A stretch of DNA of 22,351 nt from a virus. The position numbers and the translations under genes were made by a program. The first letter of the stretch is position 1. Every line of letters starts with the position of its first letter. This document shows, one piece after another, positions 923 through 20,654 of this stretch. The stretch spans positions 1 through 22,351 of IMG/VR virus record IMGVR_UViG_3300048029_000204. One strand, 5' to 3'. The notes under the pieces were generated by a model. The model saw only the letters and a list, made by a program, of their open reading frames with translations, was not told the DNA's origin and searched no databases.

Positions 923-1117
923 ATGTTCAAAGCCCTCATCCTGCTATGCGTCATAGGCCAGCCAAATCAGTGTGCAATGTTCGAGGACACGACCGGCCTG
1001 AAAGCAACAGAGAAAGAATGCCGAGCCCGCGCCAGAGAAATGGCAAAGTCAATCGGACCGATGTTTCCGATGCCGGTGCAAGCCCACTACAAATGTGAGA
1101 AAGGGGCTGCTACGTAG
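923..1117 (+). CDS. Small Cys-containing phage protein, 64 aa
   Basis: The ATG at 923 follows GGAAAGGAG (908-916) at good spacing, so this start is preferred over longer in-frame alternatives. The product has a short hydrophobic N-terminus (MFKALILLCVIG) and four Cys, including one in each of the segments QPNQCAM, EKECRA and HYKCEK. The N-terminus could be a weak signal peptide or a membrane anchor, which would put the remaining Cys in the periplasm; this is inference. I recognise it only as a type of small protein common in phages. Its TAG stop (1115-1117) lies in a palindrome that also supplies the stop of the convergent gene on the other strand. Confidence 0.6.
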   Translation: MFKALILLCVIGQPNQCAMFEDTTGLKATEKECRARAREMAKSIGPMFPMPVQAHYKCEKGAAT

Positions 1118-1120
1118 CCC
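1103..1120. other. Palindrome providing stop codons to two convergent genes
   Basis: GCTACGTAGC (1109-1118) is a perfect 10-base palindrome. Read rightward it ends the 64-residue gene with GCT ACG TAG; read leftward it ends the 59-residue gene with the same three codons. GGGCT (1104-1108) and AGCCC (1116-1120) can also pair across it, giving a short hairpin. Tracts of T on either side are weak, so terminator function is uncertain. Confidence 0.5.
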
Positions 1121-1289
1121 GCTTGTTGCCGCCTTGACTACGCTTTGACCAGAACGGCTTTTGCGCGTCTGTTGGCCTGACCTTGCGCTGATAAGTGCCT
1201 TTAGCTGGTGGCGTTGCTTCAGGTGGTGCCGTTAATCTGGCCAGCACTCTGCTGAACTCGGCTATACTCATGTTGTCTGTGTTGCTCAT
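1110..1289 (-). CDS. Hidden small protein, 59 aa, Pro/Lys-rich
   Basis: An ATG (1289-1287) preceded by GGGAGGGA, one of the best ribosome sites in the window, opens a 59-codon frame ending in TAG at 1112-1110. The protein begins MSNTDNMSIAEFSRVLARLT, continues with a Pro-rich linker (APPEATPPAKG) and has a basic aromatic C-terminus containing KPFWSKRSQGGNKR. No known family is recognised. It overlaps the 3' end of the upstream PD-(D/E)XK gene by 71 bases and the convergent 64-residue gene by 8 bases. The three leftward genes here probably form one mini-operon. Strong SD and position support reality; function is unknown. Confidence 0.65.
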   Translation of the reverse strand: MSNTDNMSIAEFSRVLARLTAPPEATPPAKGTYQRKVRPTDAQKPFWSKRSQGGNKRAT

Positions 1290-1671
1290 CTGTCAATCCC
1301 TCCCTGACAATCATGCACCACGTCTCAAAGCTGACCTCAGCCGTGTCAGCCTTGCCCCAATATTCAGGATTAATGCTACTGAGAAAGACCACGCAGCGGA
1401 TAGACTGGCGGTCATACTTGTAGATGAGAACAGGCTCACACATGGCAGCGTCTGCCGCCTTGGTTACCTGCCGCCACCAATCTTGCTTGTAGGTGGAGCC
1501 AGAAGCGTAGCGTTTGCACTCAATGACCCAACCAGGCACACCAATCAGGTCACCCCGGTCACCGCTTCTGTATTGTTCGAGGTCTCGCTTGGCCTCAAAG
1601 CCCAAATGCTCGTAGCACATCCGAGCCACATCGCGCTCAAACTGCGCGCCTTTTGCACGTCCGTTAGTCAT
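1219..1671 (-). CDS. PD-(D/E)XK nuclease, Holliday-junction-resolvase-like
   Basis: This protein of about 150 residues carries the hallmarks of the PD-(D/E)XK fold as seen in Hjc-type resolvases and VRR-like phage nucleases. There is an N-terminal helix with a conserved Glu (KGAQFERDVARM, E12), then SGDRGDLIG with D41, then VIECKRY with E51-x-K53. It probably cleaves branched or damaged DNA during phage recombination. The ATG at 1671 overlaps the upstream gene by 8 bases and has GAGG close by; ATGs at 1680 and 1683 are alternatives that add 3 or 4 residues. It sits in a leftward three-gene block facing away from the exonuclease operon, which suggests shared recombination functions. A restriction-like nuclease is the alternative reading. 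Confidence 0.75.
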   Translation of the reverse strand: MTNGRAKGAQFERDVARMCYEHLGFEAKRDLEQYRSGDRGDLIGVPGWVIECKRYASGSTYKQDWWRQVTKAADAAMCEPVLIYKYDRQSIRCVVFLSSINPEYWGKADTAEVSFETWCMIVREGLTDEQHRQHEYSRVQQSAGQINGTT

Positions 1672-1864
1672 TGGCCTCATCATACTCTATTTCAAAATAG
1701 GGCATCAGTTTGCCCTCGCCTCCACACACACCGCACTCCCATGAGTAGCTGCGTGTGATGGCAAACCCTATTTCGCTATGCTCGTACAAGTCAATGGGGA
1801 TAACACCGTTACCTTCACACTTTTCGCAATCCAACAATTCATCTGAATCAAAAACAATAAACAT
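1664..1864 (-). CDS. Small Zn-knuckle protein (DnaJ-like CxxCxGxG), 66 aa
   Basis: Two Cys-rich repeats, CEKCEGNG and CGVCGGEG, match the CxxCxGxG pattern of the DnaJ zinc-binding domain and of many small phage and bacterial Zn proteins. The rest is acidic (FDSDELLD near the start, FEIEYDEAND at the end). A single bound zinc is likely; the partner is unknown. The ATG at 1864 is preceded by AGGTG at suitable spacing; an in-frame GTG at 1873 would add three residues. It is the first gene of the leftward block and its 3' end overlaps the resolvase-like gene. It could modulate that nuclease or act as an independent regulator. Confidence 0.65.
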   Translation of the reverse strand: MFIVFDSDELLDCEKCEGNGVIPIDLYEHSEIGFAITRSYSWECGVCGGEGKLMPYFEIEYDEAND

Positions 1865-3875: not shown

Positions 3876-4208
3876 ATGGCAAGACAATGGAAAAACATCA
3901 CGCAGTTTCGGGCCTGGCCCAACGACAAAGGTGCCGCCAAGTACGGCAACAGCAAATGGACGCCGTACAAGGATGGCGCACCGGCTGACGTGCATCTGCG
4001 CGCAGACGTACAGTATTCCGTACGCGTGTATGAGAACGATGACGGAAGCATCACGCTGAAGGTTGAGCAGCCGATTGAATATGCTGGCACCGATAGCGTG
4101 GCTGACGACGTTTCGCAGGGTGGGTTTAAGCAGGTGGCGCAAGCCGCTGGCGTTCAGCAGGAGCAGAGAAAGTCTGCCATTAGCCTGGATGATGACAACC
4201 CATTCTAA
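3876..4208 (+). CDS. Putative SSB-like protein with acidic C-terminal tip
   Basis: The 110-residue product starts two bases after the annealing-protein stop. It ends in SLDDDNPF, closely resembling the DDDIPF tip by which bacterial SSB recruits partners, and also the acidic Phe-ending tail of T7 gp2.5. The body has an N-terminal Trp/Tyr-rich basic part (WKN, FRAW, KWTPYKDG) and alternating beta-type stretches (VQYSVRVYEN, ITLKVEQP) that could form a small OB-like fold. A Gln/Gly-rich segment precedes the tip. I infer a phage single-stranded DNA-binding protein. Length is shorter than a typical SSB (about 150-180), and the OB fold is not proven from sequence. Confidence 0.55.
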   Translation: MARQWKNITQFRAWPNDKGAAKYGNSKWTPYKDGAPADVHLRADVQYSVRVYENDDGSITLKVEQPIEYAGTDSVADDVSQGGFKQVAQAAGVQQEQRKSAISLDDDNPF

Positions 4209-4398
4209 AATAATCTTGGTAGTGCCTCGGCCAGACGGTTTGCTAGTAAGCATTGACGGCGTGTCCCACTACAGTGACATGGACGCAACGCAACTACTCT
4301 GGATGGCCGAGCGCTTCCTCAAAGCAGGATTGGAGGCCCAGCGTGAGGAAAAGAAAGCCGAGAAAGAAAACGCAGGACAGAAGGAAGCTGACTTGTGA
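4189..4398 (+). CDS. Small Lys/Glu-tailed phage protein, about 69 aa
   Basis: Tandem ATGs at 4189 and 4192 lie inside the end of the SSB-like gene, giving a 17-20 base overlap. The N-terminal half is beta-like (SKIILVVPRPDGLLVSIDG, then a helix DATQLLWMAERFLKAGLEAQ), and the C-terminus is a charged helix of alternating Glu and Lys. No recognised domain. The ribosome site is weak, so expression may depend on coupling to the upstream gene. Its 3' end overlaps the next gene by 56 bases. The acidic/basic tail could be a protein-interaction helix. Confidence 0.6.
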   Translation: MMTTHSKIILVVPRPDGLLVSIDGVSHYSDMDATQLLWMAERFLKAGLEAQREEKKAEKENAGQKEADL

Positions 4399-4531
4399 CT
4401 TCTGCGGCAAGGAACATTTTGTCATGGCTGGAACGTGGATTGCGAATGGGGAAGGACATTTCCTATGCCATGACATTACGACAGGAGGGTGTTTTGCAAA
4501 AGTGTGGAGAATGCGGGCAGGTGATACTTGA
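4343..4531 (+). CDS. Small zinc-finger protein, 62 aa (GTG start)
   Basis: A GTG at 4343 preceded by TTGGAGG (4330-4336) starts a 62-residue protein. It has a very basic N-terminus (RKRKPRKKTQDRRK) and then a Cys4-type zinc site: C18-x2-C21, C42 and C50, in the pattern CDFCGKEHFVMAG then HFLCHD then GGCF. The first pair and spacing resemble the ClpX-type zinc domain and ribbon-helix phage Zn proteins. The basic arm plus zinc knuckle suggests DNA or RNA binding. It overlaps genes on both sides in different frames. The strong SD chooses this GTG over upstream codons. Confidence 0.6.
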   Translation: MRKRKPRKKTQDRRKLTCDFCGKEHFVMAGTWIANGEGHFLCHDITTGGCFAKVWRMRAGDT

Positions 4532-4727
4532 AAAAGGCATACCTGTCCCCGGCGCAATGCGTGACAGATGGTCTATCCTTGGCCAAATGGAGGTTGGAGA
4601 TTGCCTTGTGGCGACCACAGTGTCAGACTATGAGAAGGTCCGCGGCGCAATGTATCACAGAGGCATGAAGTACCGGTCTCGCAAAGAGCCAAACGGTACA
4701 GGATACAGAATTTGGAGAATCGGATGA
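4521..4727 (+). CDS. Second copy of the small IPxP/GD/WRI phage protein family
   Basis: The segment ILEKGIPVPG, MEVGDCLVA and GTGYRIWRIG aligns in order and spacing with the gene at 2807-3064. GTG 4521 gives 68 residues and an N-terminus matching the paralogue, with GGAG about 11 bases upstream and an 11-base overlap with the zinc-finger gene. Alternative starts (GTG 4395, ATG 4446, TTG near 4488) would add an N-terminal extension with a KCGECGQ Cys pair. The C-terminal half is basic (YHRGMKYRSRKEP). It is the last gene of the rightward operon, 94 bases before the terminator. Function unknown; probably DNA metabolism by association. Confidence 0.6.
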   Translation: MILEKGIPVPGAMRDRWSILGQMEVGDCLVATTVSDYEKVRGAMYHRGMKYRSRKEPNGTGYRIWRIG

Positions 4728-4747
4728 CACAGATTAGCTAAGATTAC

Positions 4748-4784
4748 GCGGGTGGCTTTGTAACCGGCCGTAGGAGCCTCCCGC
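4748..4784 (+). other. Long imperfect hairpin ending in ACCA (possible structured RNA)
   Basis: GCGGGTGGCT (4748-4757) pairs with AGCCTCCCGC (4775-4784) over ten positions with one T-T mismatch, enclosing a 17-base loop that contains TTGTAACCGGCC. The 3' arm is followed directly by ACCA, like a tRNA acceptor end. No D arm, T arm or T-loop motif is present and the element is only about 41 bases, so it is not a normal tRNA. It lies downstream of the rightward operon, before its terminator, and could be a 3'-UTR structure or a small RNA. Confidence 0.4.
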
Positions 4785-4821
4785 ACCAGTTCCTCCCTAG
4801 CTAGAGAGTCTAGCCACTTAG

Positions 4822-4847
4822 CCCCCGCTTATCGGGGGTTCTTTTTT
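4822..4847 (+). terminator. Rho-independent terminator of the rightward operon
   Basis: CCCCCG (4822-4827) pairs perfectly with CGGGGG (4833-4838) around a five-base CTTAT loop and is followed by TTCTTTTTT (4839-4847). This is a textbook intrinsic terminator for rightward transcripts. On the opposite strand no T-tract follows, so it is one-directional. Confidence 0.85.
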
Positions 4848-4930
4848 CTGTTGTAAGAACCCCGGCCTTTGCGTGGCCGCACTACTCTTGGCTTGTAGAG
4901 AGGATTGGATAACTCAGCAGCAAAAGGATT
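4829..4930 (-). other. Open frame without a start codon, downstream of the 38-aa basic gene
   Basis: A 33-codon frame reads NPFAAELSNPLYKPRVVRP, then RKGRGSYNRKKNPR and stop TAA, with the stop inside the loop of the convergent terminator. The composition and the PLYKPRVV and YNRKK elements resemble short basic phage proteins, but no ATG, GTG or TTG opens it nearby. It is in the -1 frame relative to the 38-residue gene, whose last codons are CGC AAA AAG TAA. It may be made by -1 frameshifting on the A-run, from a non-standard start, or be a remnant. Confidence 0.35.
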
Positions 4931-5046
4931 TACTTTTTGCGCTTCATCGCTGGCTTTTTCTTCTTTGTGGTCATCGTGGCTGTCTTCATTGCCTTCTTCT
5001 TTGCGGCTGGTGACAGACCGTAACCGCCCTTGCCTTTTCCCATCAT
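4930..5046 (-). CDS. Tiny Lys-rich protein, 38 aa
   Basis: ATG 5046 overlaps the stop of the upstream gene (ATGA) and has AAAGGAAAG a few bases before it. The 38-residue product has 13 Lys and one Arg and no acidic residue, for example GKGKGGYGLSP, then AAKKKAMK, then TTKKKKPAMKRKK. It resembles other small basic proteins of this class of phage. A nucleic-acid-binding or packaged protein is plausible, with no direct evidence. Its 3' end is the candidate frameshift site described for the downstream frame. Confidence 0.6.
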   Translation of the reverse strand: MMGKGKGGYGLSPAAKKKAMKTATMTTKKKKPAMKRKK

Positions 5047-5357
5047 GACTTCTTTCCTTTCTTAGCTTTGTTGCGCTTGGAGATAGCTGCTGCCTTCTTC
5101 TTTGCGTCAGCCTTGCTGCTTGCACCCCATGCCCTGAGAGACAGCAAGAGCCGGGTAGGTTTGCCCTTCGCATCACGCTCTGGCCCTCTCATGCCACCCA
5201 TTCGTGCAAGGAAGCTGGCCCTGCGTGGGTTGTCGCCCTTCTTTACAGGCGCTTTCAGGTTCATGCCCTGCCTCTTTGCAGAGGCTCTGCCCTTTGCGTT
5301 CAGCCCGCCCTTCGGGCTCTTGCCAGCCTTACGCTGCCACGCCGGAGTCTTAGCCAT
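5043..5357 (-). CDS. Basic phage protein, 104 aa (DUF6321-like)
   Basis: The sequence contains KSPKGGLNAKGRASAKRQG, NPRRASFLARMGGM, GPERDAKGKPTRLLLSL and WGASSKADAKKKAAAISKR. I recognise this pattern as a common phage hypothetical family, which I recall as DUF6321; the number should be checked. It is strongly basic throughout with a Lys-rich C-terminus. The start at 5357 overlaps the stop of the upstream gene (TAATG), and its end overlaps the 38-residue gene by ATGA. The function is unknown. Conservation across phages suggests a virion-associated or DNA-binding role rather than a dispensable accessory one. Confidence 0.8.
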   Translation of the reverse strand: MAKTPAWQRKAGKSPKGGLNAKGRASAKRQGMNLKAPVKKGDNPRRASFLARMGGMRGPERDAKGKPTRLLLSLRAWGASSKADAKKKAAAISKRNKAKKGKKS

Positions 5358-8448: not shown

Positions 8449-11400
8449 TTATGGTACTGTATACTGAACAACTACTCTAATTTCGCCAGATGCCCCACTC
8501 AACTCGCTGCCAATTAGAGTACTGCCATCTACCTCGTAGAATTGGATAATGTTTGTTCCTCGTGGAACATGAACAATGTTGTTTGTGTTGGAAAAACCAT
8601 TTTGATAGGTGATAAACCCGCCGAAGGTGGACTCGTTGCTAGTGCTGTCCGATGAATTAAAAGGCAATCCACTAATGATAAAATGTGCGCCTGTTCGACT
8701 GCTGCCGTTATATTCCATAAAAACCCAAGCAGTGACTTGTCTGCCGACCTTTACATAATGACCAAGCTGATGGTCATAGCTTGAAATTGAAATGCCGGAA
8801 GACACAGTTACTGTGAAATTACCCTCCTCATAATCATCCAGATAATTAGCCGACCCAGTGCCGCCTAAGTATGCACCGCCGGAGAGGTAGAGGTCTTTGA
8901 AGCGGTTGGCTGAACGCCCTAAATCATAACTATTGTCTGTGACTGCTCTGAAGGAGTCACTCGTCCAAGTTACAACCTCAGTGCCATTTCGTGACAGCTT
9001 TCCATCAGCAATAGAGTCAACAACCAGACGAACACCGTCTGCACTTTTAATACTACCCACAGTGGTGCCGTCTTTGTAGAAGCCAACAATACCACCGTCT
9101 GTGCTTAACCTATTGAAATTACCACTAAGGTCGCTAGTATTCGTTGAGAGTATTTCTCCACCACCACGAATTACAATTCCATCATTTGCCAGTGCATTAT
9201 TAGTCTTACCCACCAGCAAGTTGCCGGATGCATCAAGCGTCATGTCAACAGTGGTGCCATCTGGCTTGAATTGCACAGACCCATCGCTTTGGATGCGGAG
9301 GCGTTCAGTGCCGTTGGTGTCAAACTCCATAAAATTGTTGGAGTGGTTGTAGACAATTCGGCCAGCCATCCCAGCGTTGTCGTTGAAATTAAGGCCAGAA
9401 TTGTAGCCTGTATAAGCCTGAATGATTACATCTGCGTGTGCGCCATCTTTGCCTTTGATGTGTAAATCCTCAGTCGGCCCCGTAGTGTTGATGCCCACGT
9501 TGCCGCTGCTGTCGATGGTCATGCGGGTGTTAGCGGCTGTTCCGAACAATAATCTCCGGCTGGAGTGGCTGTATTCTATGTACCCATCATACCTTGCCGC
9601 ACCGGATGAACCGTCAGCGAAATAAATCCTATTGACGCCCGATGTGCCGCCATACAAAGAAATGCCGTTGTCACCAGAACCGTCGCCAACTACAAGCTGA
9701 TTTGCGCCAGTGTAAAAGTTGCCCGGAGTAGAATTGCCGATGCCCACGTTGCCGCTTCGGTCTATTCGCATTGCCTCGCTTGGCGAAGAGCCAGTGCGAA
9801 ACACCATTTGAGCATCGTTTGTGCCGGTAGTGCTGGCCGTTGCGTCAAGGTACATCGCACCTGCATAGTTAGTGAAAGTGCTGCCAAAAAGCTGGATGCC
9901 AGCGCCAGCAGAGCCACCCTTCAACGTAATCTGTGCGTCTGTCCTGTCGCCCTCAATGTCAAGTGACGAAGACGCGACTTGCGCCACTACAATACTACCG
10001 GTTCCCGCTGGGTCGATGTTTACATTGCCATTCGTATCTGTGGACGAGATAGTGTTGCCGTCGATGCGGATATTGTCGACGTTAAGCTGGTCAGCCGTCA
10101 CAGTGCCAGTGACATTGATGTTGCCAGTGCCAGTGATGTCATTGCTGTTCAGGTCCAGGTCGCCGCCAAGCTGCGGGGTGGTGTCAGCAACAATGTTTGG
10201 TGATGCTGCTTGCCAAGCCGAGCCATTCCAGATGTAAAGCTCGTTGTCACCTGTGTCGAAATACAGGTCACCATTCGTCAGCGCATCGCCGTCATTGTCC
10301 ACAGTTGGGGCTGAGGCCTTGGCACCGAGGTAGATGTCGTCAAAAGCATCAAAGGAGGCCGCAGCAGACGCAGCAGATGTGGCAGCAGCAGAAGCATCAC
10401 TGGCCGCGCTAGACGCGCTTGTAGCCGCGTTTGTCTCGCTTGTAGAGGCATTTGACTCGCTGGTGGACGCATTTGAGGCAGATGTCGCAGCAGCCGAGGC
10501 GCTGTTCGAGGCATTGGTGGCGCTTGTTGCCGCATTGGACTCAGATGTGCCAGCAGCCGAAGCCGAGTTAGACGCAGAAGTTGCACTTGTCGCAGCATTT
10601 GTAGCCGAGGTCGATGCCGCCGAGGCGCTGTTAGACGCATTGGTCTCGGACGTGCTGGCATTTGTGGCACTTGTTGAGGCAGACGCCGCACTTGCAGCCG
10701 CTGCTGTAGCGTCGTCCGACACACTGGACTCACTTGCCGCAGCATTTGACTCGGATGTGGCCGCTGCACTGGCAGAGTTGGCCGCTGCTGTGGCGCTGGT
10801 AGCTGCCGCAGTCGCGCTGGTTGCCGCATTGGTTGCGCTGGTAGTCGCAGACGCAGCATCCACAATCAGGTCATACTTGGAAGCGTTGGCGTTGGTTGTC
10901 AGAGGCTGAGAGCCAGAGCTTGTGTGCGCAGAATTAACAATAAAGATGTTATTGGTGCTTGTGTCCTTCACAAGGTCACGCTCTGCATAGGCAGTCGAAG
11001 CCGCCCAGTTTCCTTGGAACGTGCCAATCTCTTGGGTAACTGCAAGCTCACCGCTGCTGTCGAAGGCAAACACCTTGTTTGCACGGTCAGTGGCACCAAC
11101 CGTGAACTCGGTCGATGTCATTGTGTTGGTGCGCGACAGCTTGATGGAACGGTCCACCTCTTCTTGGGTGTCCTGCGCCATCAATGTCAGCTTGTCCAGC
11201 GCGTCCTCGTGAGTAACGGCTGGGAATGGGTCGTTAGGAGTGTAGTCAGTAGTTTGTGTCAGCGGGACGTTACGCAGCAGGACAACAGTCACGGTTGTGG
11301 CCGGGGCCGAAACAAAGGTAATCGTGCCACCACCAGCGTTTCCAACGCCCGACACACTGTAATGCGTCGTCTTGGTCTGCACTGTTTCAGCGCCAGTCGC

Positions 11401-14761: not shown

Positions 14762-17300
14762 TTTCTGCCTTCCTCAATTCAAGCAACAACTGCCGGACAA
14801 GCTCGGCTTCATTCCGCAACTGCTCTCTCTTGCCGATTGCAGCTTCGGCTGCGGCCTCGCCTTCTTCTTGCCGTATCCTGGACAAGGTTCCGCCCGTTAG
14901 CGCGTTTGCTTCTCGGTTCAGCCTTTGGAACTCTTCCGTAACTTGGTCAATTGTGGTCAGCCCACGAGCCTCAAGGTTTTGCCTAATAAGTTCGGCGTTG
15001 TCCGACTGCTTGTCCTTAGCCAAGAGACCTTGCAGGTCTTCAAAGGTATACACAGACCCCTCATAACTTGTCGGGGCAAGTGTTCCATTGACCATGACAT
15101 TCCATTCATCAGCACGGCCAGGTGTTGGGAATATACTAACTTGCTCATCAGCCATGTTGGGGTTTTTGGCGATAAAGTCAGCCGCAGCCAAGTCAGCCAT
15201 GCGGGTCAGGTCTTGCGGATAACTACTGCTGCGCGGGATATACATGCCACGCAAATTAATGTGGGATGCCTCCATTTGCTCCGCTGCCTTTTTGACAGCA
15301 TCACGCCTAGGCAAGCCATGACCAATGTAAATCTTGGACAAGTCTTCCAGCTTTTGATGAAGGTAAGACCTGTTGGTGATTGTTTCCCCAGATAAAGTTA
15401 CGCCAAATATTTCAAACACACTACCGTCAAGGATACGGTCAACTTCTGGTTTTATGTTTTTGTATGCAGCGTTGATGTCAATCTCTGTACGCAAGGCAAG
15501 GCTTACCTTACGAATAGCGTCCTCTGTCTCAACGCCCACAGATTCCAAGGCCAGAACAGAATTGAAAAAGGCTTGGGAGTCCTCATCTGCGTGGTTGTTT
15601 AGCACGCCGCTTCCTCGAACTTTCGCTTGCCGATACAGCTCTAAGCCTTGCATAACTTGGGTCATGTCTGGCGTAGCGCCGCGGCCCTCTACAGAAGCAC
15701 CGTCAATAGTGTTCTTAATTGGCTCATAGACAAGGTTATTTTGCTCAAGAAGCTCAAATTGCTGCGGCAAGCTCTTGCCCGCGATTGCCTGTTCTAACGC
15801 AGCATTGGTTTGTTTAGACGTGAAACTAGACCCAAGTGAATCAAGTACACCGTTTTCAATTAAGTCTTTTGCCAACGATATTTGGCCAGCCTCAACGCGC
15901 TTGGATTGGGAGTTAGCCATAAGGCCACTTGTGCTTGTAAAGATGCTGTTGGCCGATGTCGCAACCGCCCCGGTTTTATCCCGCAACGAAACCAACCCGC
16001 CAAGTGGTTCATTTAAAAGAAGCTGGCTGGCAGAGGCCAAAGAGTCTGCGTTGTCATAATCTCCGGCGTCATAGGCAGCTTGGGCATCGGCTGCAAACCG
16101 CCGAGCCTGTGCAAGTATTGCCGCGTCCGCGTCTTCCTCACTGACGTCATCTCTAAGGCGGATGTTTGTTATAGTCGAAAGCAACCCTGCCGCGCCTTCA
16201 GCATCATATCCGCCAGCAATTTCACCGGACAGAAGATTGCGCGTCTCTTGTGTAAATTCTTTGGCAATGTCGTTGGCCATCTTGCTGATTTCAATACGCC
16301 TGCCAATTGGCATGTCCTTCACAGAGAAGGACAACTCATCGCCGTTTGCGCGGATGATGGAAAAGTCCTCACCCTTGTCAAAGCCATCCTTCACGGCAGA
16401 CGCCTCTGCGGACGACAGGGCTGACTCTACAATGGTCTCTCGCGTTGAGTCATAAAGCTCAGTGGCAAGGCGCTCCTTTGTTGCACGGGCAACACCAAGT
16501 GCTTCTGCCTTCTTTCCTGGCGGTATTGTCTCGTCATCAATAATTACTTTCAGGGTCGCATCAACGTCAGCCGGATTTGCCGCGTCTTGGAACCCAGCGT
16601 TTGCGGCCTCAAGCTTTGATGTCAGGCTAAAGGACTGAGGGGTGTATTTTAGTTTCCTGTTTTCGTTCCCTGCTGTTGTGAAGATGTCGTCAATCTGGCT
16701 CATTATCAAGTCACGCTCAGGAGAGCCTGATGGGTAAGTGCGAAGCGTTTGCAGAGCATCATCAAGGAACTGGTTGTCAGTTTCTGTGGCGATGCGCGTT
16801 CCGTTATCAAACGCTTTCTGCTTTGCGCCCAAGCGGTTTGAGGAGAAAACATTTTGCGCTGCGTTGAGGGCGACTTGTTCAAAGCGCGGGGTGTAACCAC
16901 GCCCACGGATGTTGTCTGCAAACTTCTCAAACTCTCCGTCGAATCTTGCTTCTGCCTCAGCTACGCTGCGGCTGTTGTCTTCTATAAGCATGGTGCCGAA
17001 AGTGTCTTGAGCCTCGCGCGTAAGCTCCTTTAGGGTGGTCTTCTCCTCGCGCTCCTTTTCCGCCATCTTAAAATCAAAATCAATCTTTGCCTTCTCAGCG
17101 TCAAAACGTTGCTTGTTTTGCAAAATACGCATTTCGCCTTCTGCATACTGACGACCGGCACGACCAACAGTTTCTCCCAACGCGGCCATTTGCCGAGCCG
17201 GTGCCGTAAAAACATCTGTACTAGCCCTTGCGCCAAGTTGGCCTGTGGCAAGAGGAACTTGCGACGGACCAGCTTTGTTATACAGAGGTATTTTCGGCAT
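14751..17300 (-). CDS. Internal virion (ejection) protein, gp15-like, 849 aa
   Basis: Second and middle-sized of three ejection proteins, in the position of T7 gp15 (747 residues). It starts MPKIPLYNKAGPSQVPLATG, a form I recognise in marine podoviruses. A long charged helical region follows (about residues 55-110, rich in Glu/Lys), and most of the protein is predicted-looking helix, ending in a coiled coil (about 800-845, with Glu/Arg/Leu repeats). It probably forms part of the periplasmic tunnel or core stack during DNA ejection. No enzymatic motif seen. The ATG directly follows the stop of the upstream gene with no gap, implying coupled translation. Confidence 0.82.
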   Translation of the reverse strand: MPKIPLYNKAGPSQVPLATGQLGARASTDVFTAPARQMAALGETVGRAGRQYAEGEMRILQNKQRFDAEKAKIDFDFKMAEKEREEKTTLKELTREAQDTFGTMLIEDNSRSVAEAEARFDGEFEKFADNIRGRGYTPRFEQVALNAAQNVFSSNRLGAKQKAFDNGTRIATETDNQFLDDALQTLRTYPSGSPERDLIMSQIDDIFTTAGNENRKLKYTPQSFSLTSKLEAANAGFQDAANPADVDATLKVIIDDETIPPGKKAEALGVARATKERLATELYDSTRETIVESALSSAEASAVKDGFDKGEDFSIIRANGDELSFSVKDMPIGRRIEISKMANDIAKEFTQETRNLLSGEIAGGYDAEGAAGLLSTITNIRLRDDVSEEDADAAILAQARRFAADAQAAYDAGDYDNADSLASASQLLLNEPLGGLVSLRDKTGAVATSANSIFTSTSGLMANSQSKRVEAGQISLAKDLIENGVLDSLGSSFTSKQTNAALEQAIAGKSLPQQFELLEQNNLVYEPIKNTIDGASVEGRGATPDMTQVMQGLELYRQAKVRGSGVLNNHADEDSQAFFNSVLALESVGVETEDAIRKVSLALRTEIDINAAYKNIKPEVDRILDGSVFEIFGVTLSGETITNRSYLHQKLEDLSKIYIGHGLPRRDAVKKAAEQMEASHINLRGMYIPRSSSYPQDLTRMADLAAADFIAKNPNMADEQVSIFPTPGRADEWNVMVNGTLAPTSYEGSVYTFEDLQGLLAKDKQSDNAELIRQNLEARGLTTIDQVTEEFQRLNREANALTGGTLSRIRQEEGEAAAEAAIGKREQLRNEAELVRQLLLELRKAESGS

Positions 17301-17831: not shown

Positions 17832-18253
17832 TATGCCACCTTTGCCATTCTGATGTAATCGTCGCCCTGAACGCCGTACTTACGCATTACACCCTCGTGT
17901 TCTAGTCCAAGCCACTCAGCGAAACGGATGGCTGGCTCGTCATCTACATGAATGCTGGCTTGCATCCGGCGCAGACTATGTTCTTGCAATATACTATCAA
18001 CAACGCCTTTTGTATAACGGGCAAACGGAGCTGCCCTGCGCTTTGCCTCTGGCGAAACCAGCACCCAAAGCTCACCGACGCCAAACCACATGATGTGTGC
18101 GCCGCCTACTGCCAACACCTCTTCGCCGTCAACCAGCGTATAGGCAACGATGTTGTCGTGGTCGCACAGGCCATCCCTAGACTCAGTTGTGAAGTCATAG
18201 TCCAGATAAATGTCGTAAACGTCGCTCTTTTTGAATTGCCTGACTTTAAGCAT
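17831..18253 (-). CDS. GNAT-fold protein at the gp13 position, 140 aa
   Basis: The sequence reads as a small GNAT (N-acetyltransferase) fold: strands LKVRQFKKSDVYDIYLDY and VLAVGGAHIMW, then ELWVLVSPEAKRRA (the acetyl-CoA-binding strand-loop-helix), then a helix, MQASIHVDDEPAIRFAEWLG and a final strand EGVMRKYG. It sits between tail tubular B and the ejection proteins, where T7 encodes gp13 (138 residues), a virion assembly protein. It may be a structural relative that no longer acts as an enzyme, or an acetyltransferase acting on host or virion proteins. The usual Q/RxxGxG/A loop is poorly kept (SPEAKRRA), so activity is doubtful. Confidence 0.75.
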   Translation of the reverse strand: MLKVRQFKKSDVYDIYLDYDFTTESRDGLCDHDNIVAYTLVDGEEVLAVGGAHIMWFGVGELWVLVSPEAKRRAAPFARYTKGVVDSILQEHSLRRMQASIHVDDEPAIRFAEWLGLEHEGVMRKYGVQGDDYIRMAKVA

Positions 18254-20654
18254 CGAATGTGTTGGACCTCCGCATCACCGCAAGAATTGTCATAGGCAGC
18301 GGCTGCGTTTGCCGCACAAACACCCTTGCGTCATTGTCATAGCCCGATGGGAATGAAATCTCTTTGTCGCCATCGAACATAGGCACAGCCTCATCCATGG
18401 CCATGCTGCTGTCGCGGAAAGGAAGCCGGTCCAGATTGTCCTCATCGGGCCCAATCTCAGCGCCTACCGTGTCGAGGAAGCGAATGGTCGCCCCGTGAAT
18501 ACGCTTAATCTTGCCCTGAGACACACCGTCGTCTGCCCCGCCTTCCATGCGCAGCGTCTGCACCTTAGAATCAAACGAGTAACCAACATGCACCGTGCTT
18601 GCGCTGCGGTCCAGCGTAACCACTCCACCACTAACAGTCTTGTCCGCATGAGCAGAGCCATCAGCAAGAATCTGTACAGTCTCGCCTTCAAGGTGGTTTA
18701 AGCCACTAATTGTGGTTGTGGCCGTGCTGTCATATGTCAGGCCGGAGTCTACATAAAAGGCGTCTGTTATGTCTGTGCCAAAAAATATGCTTTCCATAAA
18801 GACAATATGCCGAACTGTAGAGCCGTTGATAGTGCGCTTGACCGAAAGATACACTTGGTCCTCTGCGCCGCTAGGGATGGCCGTTATACTCTCCACAACC
18901 CCAGACTCCCCCATTGGGTGAGTATGCCACCCAATAGTCTGGTTTTGTGGGTCATAGGACAGGCCAACCAGAACGCCGTCATTGCGCACAAACCACAGGA
19001 TAAGCTCAGGTTCCTGCTGCCAAATCATGTCAGTCAGACCGCCACGGGCAATATGCTCTGCCAAGATGGTCAGGTCACGCCCTACAAGTCCGTCAGTGTC
19101 CAAATCGAATGTGACCTCTTTGACCTTCTCTTGCCCCTTCTGGATAAGGATGGTGCTGGACCCGGCGCGGATAGGACGCACGTCAGACGAGCCAAAGGTG
19201 GTCTCACGAAGAACATTGACGTTGGTTGGTGTGACTGGCTGTGTGCCTGTGCCACCGGACAGTGTGAACTCGGCACTGGTTGTCAGAAGCTGCAAGAAGC
19301 GGCCCTGAATCATGTGCTTGATGACGTTCACCTGGTCCGAGGCAATCGTCACATTAACCGCATCATCGTCGTTGATGCCCGGAGTGTGGTTCTCAAAGTC
19401 AGCAGTGGCAGAGCCAAAGATGGTTTGCGGCTGGCCTGTTGTGCCAGCAAAATAAAGGCGTTCTTCGTAGAAGGCCACAGCGCGGGGATAGCCTTGGTCT
19501 CCACCAAATGCGCCCAGTGACCATTTCTTTGTGGCATTAGCCGCGCCGATGATGTGGTCAGGAAGCACTGAAATACCGCCGTCATCTGTCTGCACAGTAG
19601 CTGTGACAGTAGTTGAGTTAGTGAAGGCTGTAATCTTCACATAGCCGGTGTCGTCGTGCTTGTATTCCCAATCAATAGAGCCGTAGGTCTCCGTGCCTTC
19701 TGTATGCACCGGAGGCGTGTTGCCTGATGTCTGCGTTGAACCTGTAACCTGTTCGTAGACATGACCGTCATAACGCACTGAATCGCCATCGTTGTAGCTT
19801 GTGCTGGCTGCCCACTCGTCATGCTCAATCTCAAGCACCTCACGGAACCGGATATACCGACCAACATCGTCGGCTGTGAACAACGCGGCTGATGCCGTAA
19901 TTGTTACGCTACCTGTCGCAGCGGACGCATATAGCGTAGTTGCGGTGGTGTTCTCGTCTAGGTACGGGCCATCGACAAACGCAATATCCGAAAGCGTAAA
20001 GCTGGTAGCCGTGGTGCGGGTCAGCTTGGCTGGCTCATGGTCCTTGTGCGCAAGGTACAGCACGTCAGCAGACTGCACATGGTTAAGCTCGAACACCTGC
20101 GCTTCTGTGTAGGTGGTCGTAACCTCTACAATCTTGCCGGATGTGCCGCCGCTGGTGTAGGCCGTAAAGCCAGTGCCGTCGATTCCGGAAAGCTGAAAGG
20201 TGTTGGTTGTGGCACCCGCCACCGTAAATTCACGATTATTCAACTCCACCATGCCAGCAACATCTTTAATGAACACCCGGTCTCCATTCGAGTACCCATG
20301 GCCGGTCGCTGTCACCACAACGGGATTAGCCTGTGTTGCTGCGCTAATTGTTTTGGTTGCCTCTGTCAGAATGCCCTCATCCTTGAAGAAGCGAATATAA
20401 TTTGCCCCAAATTCAAGGACATAGGCTTGCTCGTCACTGAACTGGAAGTCGATGAGCCGGACCTTGCCGCCGTCTTTTGACGTGCCAGCATACTTGGTGC
20501 CGGGTCTGCGAGTGATGCCGCCCTGCGGAAAGATAAGCATGTTCTCCAGCTTTTGTGCGCCGGAGTTGTACTTTTGCAGGTCAATACGGCCTTCAAGGCG
20601 CGGTGAAAACTCACCCGCTTGAAAGTTTGTGACAATAGTTGAAACGCGGGCCAT
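18246..20654 (-). CDS. Tail tubular protein B (gp12-like), 802 aa
   Basis: The protein forms the tail nozzle below the gp11-type ring in T7-like phages. The N-terminus NFQAGEFSPRLEGRIDLQKY, followed by GGITRRPGTKYAG, and the later VQSADVLYLAHKDHEPAKL are recurrent in this family. Two long beta-rich domains follow, and the C-terminus has YDNDARVFVRQTQPLPMTIL. Length matches T7 gp12 (794). It starts at ATG 20654, one base after the tail tubular A stop, and overlaps the GNAT gene by 8 bases. A strong assignment from motifs and synteny. Confidence 0.93.
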   Translation of the reverse strand: MARVSTIVTNFQAGEFSPRLEGRIDLQKYNSGAQKLENMLIFPQGGITRRPGTKYAGTSKDGGKVRLIDFQFSDEQAYVLEFGANYIRFFKDEGILTEATKTISAATQANPVVVTATGHGYSNGDRVFIKDVAGMVELNNREFTVAGATTNTFQLSGIDGTGFTAYTSGGTSGKIVEVTTTYTEAQVFELNHVQSADVLYLAHKDHEPAKLTRTTATSFTLSDIAFVDGPYLDENTTATTLYASAATGSVTITASAALFTADDVGRYIRFREVLEIEHDEWAASTSYNDGDSVRYDGHVYEQVTGSTQTSGNTPPVHTEGTETYGSIDWEYKHDDTGYVKITAFTNSTTVTATVQTDDGGISVLPDHIIGAANATKKWSLGAFGGDQGYPRAVAFYEERLYFAGTTGQPQTIFGSATADFENHTPGINDDDAVNVTIASDQVNVIKHMIQGRFLQLLTTSAEFTLSGGTGTQPVTPTNVNVLRETTFGSSDVRPIRAGSSTILIQKGQEKVKEVTFDLDTDGLVGRDLTILAEHIARGGLTDMIWQQEPELILWFVRNDGVLVGLSYDPQNQTIGWHTHPMGESGVVESITAIPSGAEDQVYLSVKRTINGSTVRHIVFMESIFFGTDITDAFYVDSGLTYDSTATTTISGLNHLEGETVQILADGSAHADKTVSGGVVTLDRSASTVHVGYSFDSKVQTLRMEGGADDGVSQGKIKRIHGATIRFLDTVGAEIGPDEDNLDRLPFRDSSMAMDEAVPMFDGDKEISFPSGYDNDARVFVRQTQPLPMTILAVMRRSNTFDA

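Follow-up and report, generated by a model that had tools for sequence, protein, structure and literature searches.

A predicted unpaired CUCCC motif and a lineage-restricted stem-loop at a convergent operon end of a pelagiphage-related, uncultured podovirus

The closest described counterparts of the phage operon end reported here are small RNAs (sRNAs) of bacteria and of other phages. As described in PMC3927594, the Rhizobiales sRNA model RFMSmelC671 carries a conserved CUCCC within a long stretch that stays unpaired; the flanking hairpins vary greatly, and the final one is the terminator. The phage module is alike in placing a predicted unpaired CUCCC between variable hairpins with the terminator last. 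RFMSmelC671, however, is a bacterial trans-encoded sRNA, and the phage operon end resembles it in predicted architecture. AbcR sRNAs of Brucella pair with mRNAs through short unpaired CUCCCA and GUUCCC motifs, according to PMC5461406; these are bacterial and mutationally tested, and the phage module resembles them in motif only. Phage RNAs that pair with mRNAs include, according to PMC12197685, lambda OOP, PreS and P22 sar; these have transcript or target evidence, whereas our module is a prediction from its sequence. The Rfam family RF00519 (suhB/mmgR) shares with the phage module a hairpin, an CCUCCCUAG stretch and a terminator, and gave the best sense-strand sRNA-like resemblance near the motif (18.8 bits, E 0.061); membership was rejected, this score being far under the gathering score of 41. 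A literature search by title returned nothing on this operon-end element, which does not imply its absence from print.

The window, i.e. the whole stretch of DNA analysed (22,351 nt, positions 1 to 22,351 of IMG/VR record IMGVR_UViG_3300048029_000204), has a GC content of 53% and belongs to an uncultured podovirus that has the pelagiphages HTVC010P and HTVC034P among its relatives. The tail protein encoded at 18249-20654 shows 44-49% identity to those of HTVC034P, HTVC035P and HTVC010P; 192 records match it, all at less than 60% identity. The order of the rightward genes is like HTVC034P gp15-gp17 (by annotation a nuclease, an annealing protein and a hypothetical protein), to which we infer that they correspond. 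Comparison of the DNA at 4200-5100 with named phages found no similar sequence, and the 110-aa gene that ends the rightward operon had no protein relative in named phages. Leftward genes, including an endolysin-like protein and a structural module, converge on the same junction. For another leftward gene, ORF 1219-1683 (- strand), the libraries disagree: Pfam assigns a PDDEXK_15 endonuclease and PHROG a 'RusA-like Holliday junction resolvase'. The features discussed below are as follows.

1110..1289, - strand: ORF of 59 aa in the leftward operon; it overlaps ORF 1219-1683
1294..1305, - strand: AGGGAGGGATTG, candidate target within the start region of ORF 1110-1289; 12 bp, two of them G-U, with 4787-4798
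4395..4727, + strand: 110-aa gene, the final one in the rightward operon; no family in Pfam or PHROG
4748..4784, + strand: hairpin 1, the stem-loop of the original prediction; predicted fold, with pairs kept in the homologue of loci L007 and L015
4785..4788, + strand: ACCA directly 3′ of hairpin 1, from the sequence; not conserved (ACTA in L007 and L015)
4787..4798, + strand: conserved block CAGTTCCTCCCT (YAGTTYCTCCC in relatives), from comparison; predicted unpaired
4800..4814, + strand: hairpin 2, GCTAGA-GAG-TCTAGC; sequence and length differ widely among relatives
4820..4847, + strand: intrinsic terminator with a T-rich tail behind its stem (4820-4840), from a terminator scan and fold

Hairpin 1 lies between the 110-aa gene and the terminator. 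Positions 4748-4757 pair with 4775-4784 across a 17-nt loop, U4753 and U4779 being the one mismatch among the ten positions. The stem and the ACCA behind it are thus present at 4748-4788 as originally claimed, and the claimed place ahead of a terminator is borne out by the intrinsic terminator 3′ of it. The predicted fold extends the stem (GCGGG, a U-U mismatch and GGCUUU with GGAGCC, U and CCCGC), and the first two bases of TTGTAA at 4758-4763 form U-G pairs in it. By itself the stem occurs at a frequency near chance for the window: there are 11 such stems per window strand, against 2-29 per shuffle in 10 one-strand dinucleotide shuffles. ACCA right behind such a stem is uncommon, with one stem plus NCCA on the + strand, none on the - strand and one in the 10 shuffles together. 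With a minimum free energy of -18.7 kcal/mol and z-scores of -0.82 (61 nt) and -1.70 (46 nt), the fold is predicted to be only mildly stable for its own composition, and about 1% of 8922 46-nt stretches fold as well or better. We accept hairpin 1 as a feature because it is conserved in a diverged phage, not because it is stable. As an intrinsic terminator it lacks a U-run straight after the stem, where ACCAGTTCC stands instead, and the sole call of the terminator scan on the + strand of the junction was 4820-4840. Positions 4835-4843 also form a perfect inverted repeat of 9 bp with 4855-4863, which overlaps the 3′ arm of the terminator; this is an alternative pairing that could matter to leftward transcripts.

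The original prediction had offered a shrunken tRNA-like 3′ element and an acceptor-stem mimic among the possible readings of hairpin 1; a CCA-bearing 3′ element would be of the same kind. What recalls a tRNA is a G+C-rich stem of acceptor type with ACCA behind it, which the window shares with its near-identical relatives. However, ARAGORN found 0 tRNA genes in the whole window and no tRNA in 24 related loci, and Rfam gave 0 matches in the window at gathering score; with E values up to 5 there were nine matches in 4720-4880, no tRNA family among them. These searches agree with the claimed absence of D and T arms, itself a departure from a tRNA. The CCA and the anticodon-like loop are not conserved either: TTGTAA, likened to a threonine anticodon loop, is present in the window and is lost from L007 and L015, where the stem is followed by ACTA. 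Moreover, the last two bases of ACCA are the start of the neighbouring YAGTTYCTCCC block, which relatives without hairpin 1 still have. By comparison of these sequences the tRNA reading is left with no support and fails; we consider it extremely improbable and withdraw the claim of mimicry, and attention shifts to the unpaired YAGUUYCUCCC motif. A kindred reading, that the junction is a site of phage attachment and matches the 3′ end of a tRNA, draws on the pelagiphage HTVC028P (L290), whose integrase gene (8887-10164) adjoins the end of its rightward genes. Against this, a PF00589 integrase was found in none of the 12 related records searched, all of them possibly fragments, and we regard an attachment site as very unlikely. 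As an observation in its own right, the integrase of this related phage sits at the same convergent junction.

Hairpin 1 was found in 5 of the 14 viral loci bearing the 110-aa gene. The copies in L002, L003 and L004 are near-identical to that of the window, while L007 and L015 form a diverged lineage in which the hairpin sits behind the same gene, 6 nt from its stop codon in L007 as against 20 nt in the window. L007 differs from the window at 5 of the 22 stem positions yet keeps 11/11 pairs: the outer stem is the same, the upper stem is consistently altered, and just upstream there is little similarity. All pairs would survive random changes in 2% of trials with any stem positions, 3.5% with the upper stem and 16% with the same positions and random bases. 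The L007 copy folds with a z-score of -4.89 and stands ahead of another ORF, not a terminator, which fits an mRNA structure rather than part of a terminator. The comparison comprises 4 distinct sequences, effectively two lineages, with 7 invariant pairs, 3 one-sided consistent, 1 double change (the one double-compensatory pair) and 1 found in L007 only. On these sequences the covariation score was equalled or beaten in 98/500 shuffles and the number of double changes reached in 126/500. For the covariation check named in the original prediction, this means a diverged copy that keeps its pairs and a covariation signal that is weak. The structure is supported by comparison, not proven.

Further copies were sought more widely. 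From 80 loci gathered, a covariance model of hairpin 1 was run on 64, the remaining 16 being on contigs covered elsewhere or close relatives, and gave nothing better than E 3.6 in these further loci. It scored strongly in 9 of 70 sources (6 contigs including the window, all already known), the next best being the terminator region of L002-L004 and L149 at E 0.028; in whole records it matched 3 of 16 and none of the other 13. A two-mismatch scan of 164 loci gave extra matches all judged to be chance. A broad viral pattern matched at least 120 stretches, and among the matches listed true hairpin 1 was present only in L118 and L125, near-identical to the window; a narrower pattern matched 14 stretches, of which 5 are the element. 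Contigs of bacterial genomes gave 4 matches to a stricter pattern, which were rejected as chance, there being no likeness beyond the pattern by eye. L148 shares a contig with L014, as does L227 with L312, and alignment A3, with its L148 row on the wrong strand, is the basis of no count.

The kept pairs could also be owed to shared ancestry and few changes instead of selection, hairpin 1 then being carried along neutrally where the gene junction varies. The near-chance frequency of such stems, the presence of hairpin 1 in just 5 of 14 loci and the occurrence of other genes at the same spot in relatives all favour a passenger. An unchanged outer stem and a consistently changed upper stem next to a little-similar flank argue against it, as does the 2-16% chance of keeping all pairs. 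We think a passenger unlikely, and rate it no lower because the shuffle controls of the covariation count are weak. Hairpin 1 is probably, though with real room for doubt, an intercistronic or 3′-UTR stem-loop that lies at the rightward operon's end and acts as local mRNA structure. From its position, it may slow 3′ exonucleases or border the terminator-proximal RNA, and the message of the upstream gene would thereby be protected or separated. Counting against the mRNA-structure reading are a window copy that alone is near chance, the effective two lineages and the lack of further copies by covariance model. Of the options first put forward, a structured 3′-UTR is the one supported, since the diverged homologue keeps its pairs, though covariation on 4 distinct sequences is weak. 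Hairpin 1 is a genuine intercistronic stem-loop, lineage-restricted and most likely generic in its mRNA role, and the operon end as a whole is structured and genuine but ordinary.

Separately, L005 and L006 have extra ORFs (160 aa, 92 aa and 199 aa; L006 1138-3000) right 3′ of the 110-aa gene, the first of them membrane-protein-like by eye. This is the spot that hairpin 1 occupies in L007, and it is a variable gene-exchange site.

Downstream of hairpin 1 the operon end follows a set order, namely YAGUUYCUCCC, a hairpin of very variable sequence and length, and the terminator. Block and terminator were found in 19 of 24 loci examined, amounting to 10 distinct sequences, and the block was missing from the other five (L011, L012, L013, L210 and L217). 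L313 and L314 add two further distinct sequences, giving 12 in all with the window included, and for 9 of the 12 no member was seen with hairpin 1. In several relatives without hairpin 1 the block is fused with the last gene's stop codon. The comparison thus shows a module common to many relatives and independent of hairpin 1. In 11 of these 12 sequences YAGUUYCUCCC is predicted to be free of pairing throughout, the exception being L313, where it is partly paired with 5/9 bases predicted free; the arrangement of CUCCC-type sRNAs, a conserved unpaired motif between variable hairpins plus a terminator, was accordingly found in those 11. Among relatives, the fixed part of this operon end is the unpaired CUCCC motif, not hairpin 1. 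A base-pairing RNA would be expected to look like this, the hairpins varying and the motif between them invariant and unpaired.

A pattern for the terminator module matched 16 stretches, of which 6 were unrelated by eye (L136, L137, L138, L141, L142 and L147). A stricter seed pattern was present in 9 of 16 records, an undercount since it cannot match the L153-type block. Two of the loci, L014 and L156, lie on one 64-kb contig, IMGVR_UViG_3300025889_000115, that carries the same operon end twice, in differing versions, so the contig may join two phage genomes.

The invariant unpaired motif raises the reading that the operon end is a 3′-UTR-derived small RNA whose CAGUUCCUCCCU seed (4787-4798) binds the 59-aa ORF 1110-1289 at its start region, blocks its translation and so links the two operons; host mRNAs may perhaps be bound too, and hairpin 1 may be the 5′ border. 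The ORF has relatives in other phages at 52-58% identity. The seed is complementary to AGGGAGGGAUUG, just upstream of the start of this leftward ORF, over 12 bp, while the next-longest contiguous match in the window, its own complement aside, is 8. When ORF starts were ranked with each lineage's own seed, the start region of 1110-1289 came first in 7/7 lineages; among three added lineages it came first in L314 and not in L312 or L313, in both of which one target pair is broken (8/10 in total). The seed, moreover, is kept and predicted unpaired across the module sequences as described above while hairpin 2 varies, and the architecture is like that of RFMSmelC671 as PMC3927594 describes it. However, 12 pairs were reached at some place in the window by 16% of shuffled seeds and the observed start-region energy by 23/300, and a 16S-like anti-SD control ranked the same gene first in the window. 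With the window's own seed, this start region leads the second site only narrowly, at -21.1 versus -19.1 kcal/mol. L011 retains the target site without the seed, and more distant relatives are without the site.

Codon conservation at the target site bears on the same question. In the PDDEXK-like gene, codons at 1290-1325 (- strand) show unusually few synonymous changes near where the overlapping 59-aa ORF starts, as judged from the window and orthologues in L007, L010, L011, L014, L151, L154 and L157. The conservation has P 0.048 with all 8 sequences and 0.00017 without L151, which was dropped post hoc, so that its significance hinges on this omission; the overlapping gene, through its ribosome-binding site and its start, would account for it. 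Taken together, the pairing across lineages, first-ranked in 8/10 with weak controls, lends the antisense idea only moderate support, and we hold the small RNA tentatively, as a rather unlikely reading. It is doubtful, too, that in this clade of podoviruses of marine type the rightward operon ends in an antisense RNA in which hairpin 1 and the variable hairpin frame an invariant anti-Shine-Dalgarno seed, silencing the small gene of the opposite operon as an RNA-level switch. Such a switch would work like the CUCCC sRNAs of alphaproteobacteria. If the motif does act in trans, it would connect two operons of this uncultured phage clade at the RNA level. A second CAGTTTCTCCCAA occurs at 17168-17180 (+ strand), antisense to the structural genes, and is probably due to chance.
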